Source of the DNA: Streptomyces liliiviolaceus
GTDB taxonomy: Bacteria; Actinomycetota; Actinomycetes; Streptomycetales; Streptomycetaceae
Reading direction: 5' to 3'
DNA length: 64,000 bases
Assembly: GCF_018070025.1 (NCBI RefSeq)
Contig: NZ_JAGPYQ010000001.1
Location: 3,782,001 to 3,846,000, forward strand
The translations under genes and the position numbers were made by a program. Position 1 is the first letter of the stretch; each line of letters starts with the position of its first letter. Shown here in pieces: positions 19,730 to 21,819 of this stretch. The notes beneath the pieces are model-generated. The model ran no database searches, had not been told where the DNA came from, and was given only the letters and a program-made list of their open reading frames with translations.

Positions 19730-19854
19730 GTGCGGGAAGGGCGCGTCCCCGGCGGGCGCGCCCTCCCGGTAAGAGGTTGCCGTCCCGGTACGGGGTTGCC
19801 GCCCGTGCCGCTCCCACTACCGTGGGTACCCGCAGACGCGACGAAGGGGGCCCG

Positions 19855-20286
19855 ATGGACGCGGAGTTGGCGGCGCTGGCGGCGGCGGGGGCGACGGCTC
19901 TCGTGCAGCAGATGGTGACCGACGGGTGGGGGAACGTGCGGGACCGGGCCGTCGCCCTCTTCTCGCGGGGGCGGGACGACGAGTCGGTCCAGGGGGAGTT
20001 GGAGGAGTCCCGCGCGGACCTGGTCGCGGCGCGGGACGCCGACGACGAGGACGCGGCGGCCGACATCCAGGCGTCCTGGCGTGCCAGACTCCGGCGAACC
20101 CTCCGCGACGATCCGCGGGCGGCGGCCGAACTCCGCGCACTTCTCGACGAGTTGGACCCGCAGCCCACGGGTCCCACGACGCTCACCGTCCACAACACCG
20201 TCAGCGGCGGGGCGTCCGGTGTGGTGGTCCAGGGCGGCACGTTCAACGGCGGGCTGACGATCGGGGAGTCCTGGCGCCGTACATGA
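19855..20286 (+). CDS. Conserved hypothetical protein with beta-repeat tail
   Basis: A 143-residue protein I cannot name. The first 110 residues are helical and charged (MDAELAALAAAGATALVQQM, then DDESVQGELEESRADL). The last 35 switch to HNTVSGGASGVVVQGGTFNGG, a strand-turn pattern rich in N, G and V. I have seen such N-T-(V/I)-S-G-x-V-x-G-x-V-V-Q tails joined to helical modules in actinobacterial conflict or signalling (effector-associated) proteins; this is an analogy. GAAGGGGG precedes ATG 19855. It is followed 58 nt later by the next gene. Confidence 0.6.
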   Translation: MDAELAALAAAGATALVQQMVTDGWGNVRDRAVALFSRGRDDESVQGELEESRADLVAARDADDEDAAADIQASWRARLRRTLRDDPRAAAELRALLDELDPQPTGPTTLTVHNTVSGGASGVVVQGGTFNGGLTIGESWRRT

Positions 20287-20344
20287 CGCGGCTCGTCGAA
20301 TAACCCTTCGATCAGTCCCCGTCCGCACTGCTACCGTCACCGAC

Positions 20345-21076
20345 GTGGCGAAACTCAATCAGATCATCGCAGTGGAGAAGGGCGTCAAGTCCAAGTCGCA
20401 CCAGGACCTGACGGCCGCGCATCACGGGCTCCAGAAGCCTGCCCTGCTGGCCGGAATCTCGCGTACGTACCAGCCCAAGGACGAAGAGGGCGAGCAGTTG
20501 CCGCCCGAGTCGACCCGGGTGCAGGTGCGGGCCGAGAACGTGCTGCGGGACACCGCGGCCACGCTGACCCGGCTGTTCGACGTGACCGCCACCAAGGACT
20601 GGGCTAACTGCACCGCCCGCGCGGACGTCAAGGTCGACGGGCGGGTGCTCGTCGCCGACGTTCCGGTGTCCTACCTGCTCTTCCTTGAGAAGCAGCTCAC
20701 CGACCTCAACACCTTCGTACGGAAGCTGCCCGTGCTCGACGCCTCCGAGTCGTGGGTCCAGGACCCGTCGACCGACGCGTGGAAGACCGAGCCGGTGCGC
20801 ACGCTCCGTACGAAGAAGGTCCCGCGGAACCACGTCAAGGCCGAGGCCACCGACAAGCACCCCGCCCAGGTCGAGGTGTACTACGAGGACATTCCCGTCG
20901 GGTACTGGACGACCGTGAAGTTCTCCGGCGCCCTGCCCGCGCGGCGTGTCAACGAACTGCTCGACCGGGTCGAGAAGCTGCAGCAGGCCGTCAAGTTCGC
21001 CCGGGAAGAGGCGAACGGCGCGGAGGTCACCGACGAGCGTGTCGGAGACGCTGTGTTCGGCTACCTGTTCGGGTAG
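20345..21076 (+). CDS. Conserved actinobacterial protein of unknown function (DUF7873-like)
   Basis: A 243-residue soluble protein that I recognise only as conserved in actinobacteria; the DUF7873 label is from memory. Notable blocks are SHQDLTAAHHGLQKPALLAGISRTY, the VPVSYLLFLEKQLTDLNTFV helix, LDASESWVQD, TKKVPRNHVKAEATDKHPAQ and YEDIPVGYWTTVKFSG. No signal peptide or membrane segment is present. GTG 20345 starts MAKLNQIIAVEKGVK. Directly downstream are two permuted tRNA-like units with no other gene before 21820, so a link with their processing is worth testing; that is inference from position alone. Confidence 0.7.
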   Translation: MAKLNQIIAVEKGVKSKSHQDLTAAHHGLQKPALLAGISRTYQPKDEEGEQLPPESTRVQVRAENVLRDTAATLTRLFDVTATKDWANCTARADVKVDGRVLVADVPVSYLLFLEKQLTDLNTFVRKLPVLDASESWVQDPSTDAWKTEPVRTLRTKKVPRNHVKAEATDKHPAQVEVYYEDIPVGYWTTVKFSGALPARRVNELLDRVEKLQQAVKFAREEANGAEVTDERVGDAVFGYLFG

Positions 21077-21135
21077 CCTCACCATCTCCCCGGTCATCGC
21101 CTATGAAGGCCGAAGGCCGGGGTGCGCGAGGAGCG

Positions 21136-21155
21136 CAAGCTGAACCTGAAGCTTG
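21136..21155 (+). other. Small hairpin leading the permuted tRNA region
   Basis: CAAGCT (21136-21141) pairs perfectly with AGCTTG (21150-21155) around the 8-nt loop GAACCTGA, nine nt before the first tRNA-like unit. It could cap the 5' end of the transcript or mark a processing site. Confidence 0.5.
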
Positions 21156-21163
21156 TCGTGACC

Positions 21164-21250
21164 GCGCGGTTCCAGTGGAGGTTCAAGTCCTCCCCGCGGC
21201 ACCCTTCGCGCCGCGGTAGCCCAATCGGCAGAGGCAGACCGCGCTCAATC
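21164..21250 (+). tRNA. Circularly permuted tRNA-like unit 1
   Basis: The 3' portion comes first. T-arm: stem 21177-21181/21189-21193, loop TTCAAGT. 3' acceptor strand: CCGCGGC (21194-21200), then A and CCC. After an 8-9 nt linker comes the 5' acceptor strand GCCGCGG (21210-21216), a perfect 7-bp match. Then T8 A9 and a D-arm with stem GCC/GGC (21219-21221/21233-21235) and AATCGG in the loop. Tertiary partners are present: U8-A14, A15-U48, G18-U55, G19-C56, U54-A58. GACCG (21237-21241) pairs with CGGTT (21167-21171), leaving a 5-nt variable region, and the helix runs on for three more pairs. No standard 7-nt anticodon loop with U33 follows from a 5-bp stem. If the stem has 7 bp, the loop would be CTCAATC with anticodon CAA. 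The anticodon is unresolved. Confidence 0.72.
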
Positions 21251-21300
21251 TCAGACTATTGCTCCAGACTCAGCATTCGCCGCCGATCGCCGGATCGACC

Positions 21301-21406
21301 GGACCCAGGCTCCGGGCGTCGAAATGCCGGTTCAAGTCCGGCCCGCACAGCTCGATGTGCGGTGGTCCAAAGGCAGGACGCGGCGACATGAAACTGACCT
21401 GGGTCC
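21301..21406 (+). tRNA. Circularly permuted tRNA-like unit 2, anticodon CCG (Arg)
   Basis: Order: outer-helix strand GGACCCAGG (21301-21309), anticodon loop CTCCGGG (21310-21316), anticodon stem 3' CGTCG, variable AAAT, T-stem GCCGG/CCGGC with loop TTCAAGT (21326-21342), 3' acceptor CCGCACA (21343-21349). The 6-nt linker GCTCGA is next. Then 5' acceptor TGTGCGG (21356-21362), perfect 7 bp; T8 G9; D-arm GTCC/GGAC with loop AAAGGCA (21365-21379); G26; anticodon stem 5' CGGCG (21381-21385), 5 bp with one G-U. CCTGGGTCC (21398-21406) closes a perfect 9-bp helix with 21301-21309. Joining 21385 to 21310 gives a standard cloverleaf with U33, anticodon CCG and G37. All usual tertiary partners (8-14, 15-48, 18-55, 19-56, 54-58) are present. 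No CCA is encoded. Confidence 0.82.
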
Positions 21407-21447
21407 TCAAGCGTGCCGGCGTGCCGCATGGGTGGCATCACAGGGCT

Positions 21448-21483
21448 CGGGGGCCGGCTACGCCCCCGGGCCCGCTCCCTTTT
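21448..21483 (+). terminator. Terminator-like hairpin after the permuted tRNA units
   Basis: CGGGGGC and GCCCCCG form a 7-bp hairpin around CGGCTA-like loop bases (about 21448-21470), followed 10 nt later by a TTT run, unusual in this GC-rich sequence. It would end a transcript covering both tRNA-like units. Confidence 0.5.
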
Positions 21484-21538
21484 CCGGCCCGACCCGGCCC
21501 AGCCCGGCCCGACCCGGCCCAGCCCGGCCCGACCCGGC
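21484..21538. repeat. 10/20-nt tandem repeat
   Basis: A C/G-only array of a 20-nt period made of two 10-nt halves (GACCCGGCCC and AGCCCGGCCC), about 2.7 periods with no mismatch. It does not encode a supported protein and lies between the terminator-like hairpin and the FUSC gene. Confidence 0.85.
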
Positions 21539-21652
21539 GCACTCGCGCCCGCGCCCGCGATTGCGATTGCGTTCATAAAGAACCCGGCTCTCGCCGAAAT
21601 CGTCACACCGTGGAAACGCTCATGTCCGGTTTCGCCACCGGACACGATCTAC

Positions 21653-21733
21653 CGTGGAGAACCGGTCCTCCGTAGAGGCCCGCTCCACCACAGAGAACCG
21701 ATCCGCCGCAGAGAACCGATCCGCCGCAGAGAA
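21653..21733. repeat. 18-nt tandem repeat upstream of the FUSC gene
   Basis: Two exact copies of CAGAGAACCGATCCGCCG (21691-21708 and 21709-21726), a third partial copy and a degenerate copy upstream containing GAGAACCGGTCCTCCG. It ends 86 nt before the FUSC start and so lies in its leader or promoter. Confidence 0.8.
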
Positions 21734-21819
21734 GCAGGCAAGGACCCCACCGACACCGCCCGGCCGATGTCGCCCGAAGGCATGCCATCCGCAACCGCCC
21801 TCGTCTCGACAGGAGCCCC

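Follow-up and report, generated by a model that had tools for sequence, protein, structure and literature searches.

What is encoded at positions 21301-21406 of our window, a 64,000-nucleotide (nt) stretch of the Streptomyces liliiviolaceus genome (contig NZ_JAGPYQ010000001.1, forward strand)? An initial annotation had read these positions as a complete, circularly permuted tRNA-like gene with anticodon CCG. We find two tandem folds at this locus, downstream of a gene of the DUF7873 protein family; in each, a long stem ends in a tRNA-like head whose parts are circularly permuted. The fold resembles a Y RNA, not a tRNA gene. Bacterial Y RNAs have been described as partners of the protein Ro60; here we put at about 0.6 the probability that both folds act as Y RNAs with DUF7873, rather than Ro60, as their partner.

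The outer helix, inner stem, T-arm, acceptor with its 6-nt linker and D-stem all lie where the initial annotation had placed them, and the extent 21301-21406 is real. It is not complete, however, since an upstream head (21177-21235) and the long stems had been missed. The region 3' of the DUF7873 stop codon aligns as a single conserved stretch across 80 Streptomyces-type relatives. A consensus fold was computed from 81 sequences, namely the window and the best 80 of 540 Streptomyces-type DUF7873 relatives. The layout of the locus is as follows.

20345..21076, + strand: DUF7873 gene (PF25283, 243 amino acids (aa); Pfam score 406.5 bits)
21088..21122, + strand: leader hairpin past the DUF7873 stop codon, stem 21088-21095/21115-21122 with some double changes (consensus fold)
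21123..21137, + strand: small hairpin, stem UGCGC/GCGCA, stem pairs unchanged in 81/81 sequences (consensus fold)
21139..21274, + strand: Y-like RNA A, the first permuted tRNA-like head closed by a long basal stem (consensus fold)
21177..21235, + strand: head A, with T-arm 21177-21193, acceptor 21194-21200/21210-21216 (9-nt linker) and D-arm 21219-21235
21279..21436, + strand: Y-like RNA B, the second head closed by a long basal stem, containing the outer helix 21301-21309/21398-21406 (consensus fold)
21317..21385, + strand: inner, anticodon-like stem 21317-21321/21381-21385 and head B, with T-arm 21326-21342 and D-arm 21365-21379
Within head B, + strand: acceptor 21343-21349/21356-21362 (6-nt linker) and D-stem 21365-21368/21376-21379
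21443..21473, + strand: intrinsic terminator-like hairpin, a 12-pair stem followed by GCTCCCTTTT, stem kept with some double changes; presumed end of the transcript

Is the fold more than a chance arrangement? We applied a strict permuted-tRNA detector requiring 5/5 T-stem pairs, 7/7 acceptor pairs, a linker of 3-12 nt, U8, A14 and at least 3/4 D-stem pairs. It returned two hits in the 64-kilobase (kb) window, both at this locus, the second being head A (T-loop at 21182). Run on both strands of 60 dinucleotide-Markov versions of the window, it returned no hit. Covariation was scored on 49 chosen domain B sequences (set A3, 48 distinct) drawn from 154, comprising 20 of 81 Streptomyces copies including the window and 29 of 73 viral copies; the set omits most long-linker copies as well as L153, L217 and L222, and its Streptomyces rows are mutually related. 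Double-sided changes were found at 29/31 pairs and 94.9% of cells were paired, giving a covariation score of 0.720 compared with 0.238 in shuffles and 0.10-0.15 for slid partners. Pairing reached 99.7% of cells in the acceptor, 100% in the T-stem, 99.5% in the D-stem, 97.6% in the basal stem and 84.3% in the outer helix, where all nine pairs (9/9) showed double-sided changes. Detector and covariation together rule out a chance fold. Covariation, which the initial annotation had asked to be checked in every helix, is strong in the outer helix and in the acceptor, T- and D-stems; the anticodon-like stem, which lay outside the tested structure, is nearly constant in Streptomyces (middle pair UA in 44, UG in 33 and CG in 3).

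Does a real permuted fold amount to a permuted tRNA gene, whose transcript would be cut and ligated into a translating tRNA-Arg(CCG)? In native order the window yields no tRNA to ARAGORN, whereas the rotated sequence (21356-21385 joined to 21310-21349) is named tRNA-Arg(ccg), both in line with the initial annotation. The T- and D-loops of the heads are tRNA-like, and the genome encodes RtcB. A 2014 review (PMC3978253) counts 34 permuted tRNA genes, with bulge-helix-bulge (BHB) junctions, from one archaeon and six algae, and permuted RNAs in general are treated in part of PMC10085705. The present locus resembles the algal and archaeal genes in that the 3' half precedes the 5' half and a short linker joins the acceptor strands, but it differs in its variable anticodon and its long covarying outer stem, and no splicing endonuclease was found. 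We counted anticodons with the loop taken wholly from the upstream strand and the best helix used for each copy. Across 67 distinct Streptomyces copies of B, CCG is the commonest triplet (19/67), yet 12 triplets occur and U33 is present in only 8/67; among B loops with exactly the geometry of the window, position 33 is U in 4/36 distinct copies, and in the upstream copy A it is U in 0/29. U33 and the CCG anticodon, put forward as tRNA features, are therefore not conserved, and on these counts we reject a functional tRNA-Arg(CCG). A search of the genome with PF01974 (tRNA_int_endo) gave 0 matches to the tRNA-splicing endonuclease, while the control matched in 4 archaea. The consensus fold places an asymmetric internal loop at the 21385/21310 junction. 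The tRNA-gene reading fails because the anticodon loop and U33 vary, the splicing endonuclease was not found and the outer helix, which would have to be excised, is kept by covariation. We consider it extremely improbable; what survives of it is the permuted order and the covariation.

What, then, does the fold resemble? In passages of PMC8394870 and PMC6181284, the bacterial Y RNA YrlA is a stem of paired ends carrying a domain that resembles three arms of a tRNA (D, T and acceptor), and Rsr/Ro60 is placed on the stem with PNPase on the head. Both structural features are present here: a tRNA-like head in which T-arm, closed acceptor and D-arm follow one another as in YrlA (RF02553), the Y RNA that forms RYPER with Ro60/Rsr and PNPase, and long stems formed from the 5' and 3' ends (21139-21274 and 21279-21436, covariation having been tested on B). 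Two RNAs lie together, as they do in Salmonella, where part of PMC7790460 describes two Y RNAs in a single rsr-yrlBA-rtcBA operon; yrlA is also predicted in some mycobacteria, probably through transfer, according to a passage of PMC9569102. Against these likenesses, DUF7873 stands where Ro60 would adjoin, the stems carry other conserved motifs, and many phage copies encode NCCA. The Rfam YrlA model scores RNA A at 23 bits (E 0.025, 21153-21261), under its gathering score of 69, and lists no match to RNA B at E <= 5. Ro60-linked Streptomyces Y RNAs also score under 69, at 54.3, 40.6 and 37.4 bits. We found no match to TROVE in the S. liliiviolaceus genome, and thus no Ro60/Rsr next to the RNAs. 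We do not claim membership in the Ro60-Y RNA family, because the tests of Ro60 adjacency and of the Rfam score both came out against it. Among the weak YrlA matches elsewhere in this genome, one (L002) falls on two ordinary tRNA-Asn genes and three (L003, L004 and L006) each have one ARAGORN tRNA overlapping or adjoining, while ARAGORN finds no tRNA at a fifth (L005).

If not Ro60, which protein accompanies the RNAs? Within the 700 nt that follow DUF7873, a permuted head is present at 81/81 Streptomyces loci (the window and the best 80 of 540) and at 83/92 viral and phage loci. We trained a covariance model, R1, on set A3, with the window among its rows, and scored 15 candidates in each of 199 Streptomyces genomes. 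The top 93 hits fell in exactly the 93 genomes that encode DUF7873, on the same strand and 19-344 nt downstream of it; the locus is missing from the other 106, about half. The gap in score is mostly wide (67.7 bits at the 92nd hit) and narrow at the end, with 55.7 bits for the 93rd hit and 55.3 for the first genome without DUF7873. Weaker hits elsewhere bring the total to 186/199 genomes at E <= 0.001; among them are Y RNAs linked to Ro60 and, probably, some tRNAs. In the window, R1 matches head A at 44.8 bits (21176-21253). DUF7873 was found in 6/296 genomes drawn across the phylum, all six of them Streptomyces. This constant company makes DUF7873 the likely protein partner of the Y-like RNAs, as judged from sequence. 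Its structure was predicted with a local distance difference test score (pLDDT) of 90 and a template modelling score (pTM) of 0.63, and fold comparison found no convincing resemblance. For the DUF7873 protein we found no family in PHROGs, NCBIfam or PADLOC and no sequence match in the PDB; set A2 gathers 47 DUF7873 proteins. A literature search found no paper on it, and none on DUF7873-linked Y-like RNAs, Chen et al. 2014 being outside the reach of that search. A pattern search of the S. liliiviolaceus genome gave no matches.

Could these nevertheless be Y RNAs of the usual kind that bind a Ro60 encoded at another locus, with DUF7873 as an accessory? TROVE occurs in 94 of the 199 Streptomyces genomes, 48 of which also encode DUF7873; 45 have DUF7873 only, 46 TROVE only and 60 neither, so that the two are statistically independent (Fisher p 0.26). 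Sharing a genome in 48/93 cases would suit a Ro60 client, but 45/93 genomes with DUF7873, and 11/12 phage records that we fetched, have no TROVE match (1/12 does), and the RNA tracks DUF7873, not TROVE. We compared eight chosen TROVE-linked loci (L001 and L232-L238, the latter seven picked for an R1 hit near TROVE). Their heads match R1, as would be expected of a Ro60 client, and five (L232-L235 and L237) also carry tandem permuted heads. In 6/8, however, the best R1 match is confined to the head (model positions 46-109 or 46-103), and their stems, of the TACTTC ... GATCTCTGGACA type, are unlike those linked to DUF7873; in L238 and L001 the best match covers the whole of the model, though with lower scores (52.0 and 32.2 bits, respectively). 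On balance we regard dependence on Ro60 as unlikely. The genome under study does hold a truncated TROVE-like open reading frame (ORF) of 235 aa some 79 kb past the window (L008:8180-8884), which a Ro60 client could call upon: it resembles the first part only of 9l5y (E 4e-13), has no Pfam match and has a YrlA-like RNA directly upstream (L001, 40.6 bits). Because it is partial, lacks a Pfam match and adjoins that RNA, the ORF looks like a remnant of the organism's own Ro60.

Which parts of the RNAs would a partner read? Stem B carries conserved motifs, AUCGA opposite UUAAACG. AUC[GA]A is present in 60/69 distinct Streptomyces and 50/68 viral copies, and U[UC]AA[AG] in 64/69 and 60/68; in the flanks of A the two motifs are found in 0/36 and 2/36 Streptomyces and in 9/58 and 23/58 viral copies. 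In stem A, CUGA-type hexamers stand in tandem instead, on the 5' side in 50/51 Streptomyces and 34/58 viral copies (shuffles 0 and 0.002) and on the 3' side in 3/51 and 31/58. This 6-nt CUGA-type period (a lag-6 peak) occupies the 5' side of stem A in Streptomyces, at 21139-21171 in the window, and many viruses (for example L147) have it on the 3' side as well. Head A was not found in 25/81 Streptomyces loci, its stem pairs persisting in nearly all rows. By direct reading, head A is present in 53/81, replaced by a piece of 21-44 nt in 12/81 and unmatched by the pattern in 16/81; the four replacement pieces that we folded were all hairpins. Loci with head A replaced and the stem retained include L017, L019, L027, L082 and L089. 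One of the two Salmonella Y RNAs may be without a tRNA-like head. The conservation of the stem motifs, with head A replaceable while its stem is retained, suggests that the stems are read by a protein and the heads by another factor.

Does the pairing of DUF7873 and RNA extend beyond Streptomyces? DUF7873 occurs in 73 phage records, and all 12 that we fetched contain an R1 match at E <= 1, although the best match is only E 0.0025 and 0.0057 in two Vibrio phage records. Phages with the pairing infect actinobacteria, cyanobacteria, Vibrio, Klebsiella and Rhizobium. Within viral contigs (the best 80 of 257), the 700 nt after DUF7873 hold a permuted head in 72/80 and two heads in 50/80, compared with hits in 9/80 for an upstream control stretch. 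In a Microcoleus phage record the R1 match lies about 2 kb from DUF7873, beyond a HEARO RNA (129 bits, L096:2950-3159) that separates the two. Two earlier accounts touch on the phage setting: part of PMC7824862 reports that a small fraction of jumbo phages carry TROVE, and a passage of PMC12282133 proposes Y RNAs for a Listeria phage. In several phages DUF7873 sits amid tRNA genes. Phage tRNA arrays are also the setting of the large RNAs GOLLD and ROOL, neither of which gave an Rfam match here; the permuted tRNA heads set the present RNAs apart from both.

Phage copies also bear on whether the acceptor is opened. NCCA directly follows the 3' acceptor strand in 25/57 distinct viral A heads and 31/64 distinct B heads (44-48%), against a CCA background at later linker offsets of 3/380 and 29/1096; in Streptomyces it follows 10/52 distinct A heads (background 13/827). 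These figures would fit two-piece tRNA-like RNAs, in which RNase P and 3' processing remove the acceptor linker and leave heads with a CCA end, either for aminoacylation or for binding by CCA-recognising factors, as in permuted transfer-messenger RNA (tmRNA). The two kinds of RNA share an acceptor built across a linker, and weak beta_tmRNA matches occur at three phage heads (L097, L098 and L101). Yet NCCA follows 0/39 distinct Streptomyces B heads, the linkers of the window begin GCTC (B) and ACCC (A), and the encoded CCA might be inherited from an ancestral tRNA or be pure mimicry. The alanine identity pair of tmRNA, G3-U70, is in neither head of the window (C3-G70 in A, U3-A70 in B); a canonical D-arm and a Y stem also distinguish these RNAs from tmRNA, and Rfam tmRNA models have no match at the locus at E <= 5. 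Two-piece processing is therefore a doubtful account of the locus as a whole. We would be as tentative about a broader proposal, in which DUF7873 marks a second, Ro60-independent, phage-spread Y ribonucleoprotein system whose encoded-CCA heads are opened at the acceptor, yielding two-piece tRNA mimics through which a tRNA-handling enzyme is loaded onto a DUF7873 particle.

How might a Y RNA with DUF7873 as partner work? DUF7873 and the RNAs would be co-transcribed up to the terminator. Constant adjacency and stem conservation lead us to infer that DUF7873 binds the conserved stem loops, AUCGA/UUAAACG in B and the CUGA-type repeats in A. The heads could then engage a tRNA-binding enzyme, either PNPase, by analogy with RYPER, or one that processes or cleaves tRNA, and the particle would steer or block it; neither excision nor ligation of the head would be needed. 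Alternatively, the same heads could serve as decoys that, under phage infection or toxin attack, sequester enzymes that cleave or modify tRNA. The company of tRNA genes in several phages speaks for this, as does the competitive inhibition of a nuclease proposed for YrlA in part of PMC7790460. A decoy, though, requires neither a conserved stem nor a partner protein, and the RNAs also occur in Streptomyces genomes, outside any array seen; we judge this role quite unlikely.

Were DUF7873 indeed the partner, the tRNA-mimicking head would be a reusable module of which Ro60 is just one carrier: a covarying Y-like RNA tracks another protein family one-to-one in the sampled genomes, including genomes and phages without a TROVE match. 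DUF7873, a family known by number alone, would gain a concrete, testable role. Deletion should be feasible, because the locus is absent in 106/199 Streptomyces genomes, and the phage-encoded CCA makes opening of the acceptor directly testable.

Three further observations concern the surroundings. No sigma-70-like promoter was found within 20200-21800. In Gordonia phage Phendrix, the tRNA array that contains DUF7873 also holds a tmRNA match (89 bits, L091:72-600). On the 5' side of DUF7873 in the window lies a small ORF (19735-20286) without a Pfam match that ends in a TVHNTVSGGASGVVVQGGTFNGG stretch, and a homologue of it is present at 4/80 DUF7873 loci.
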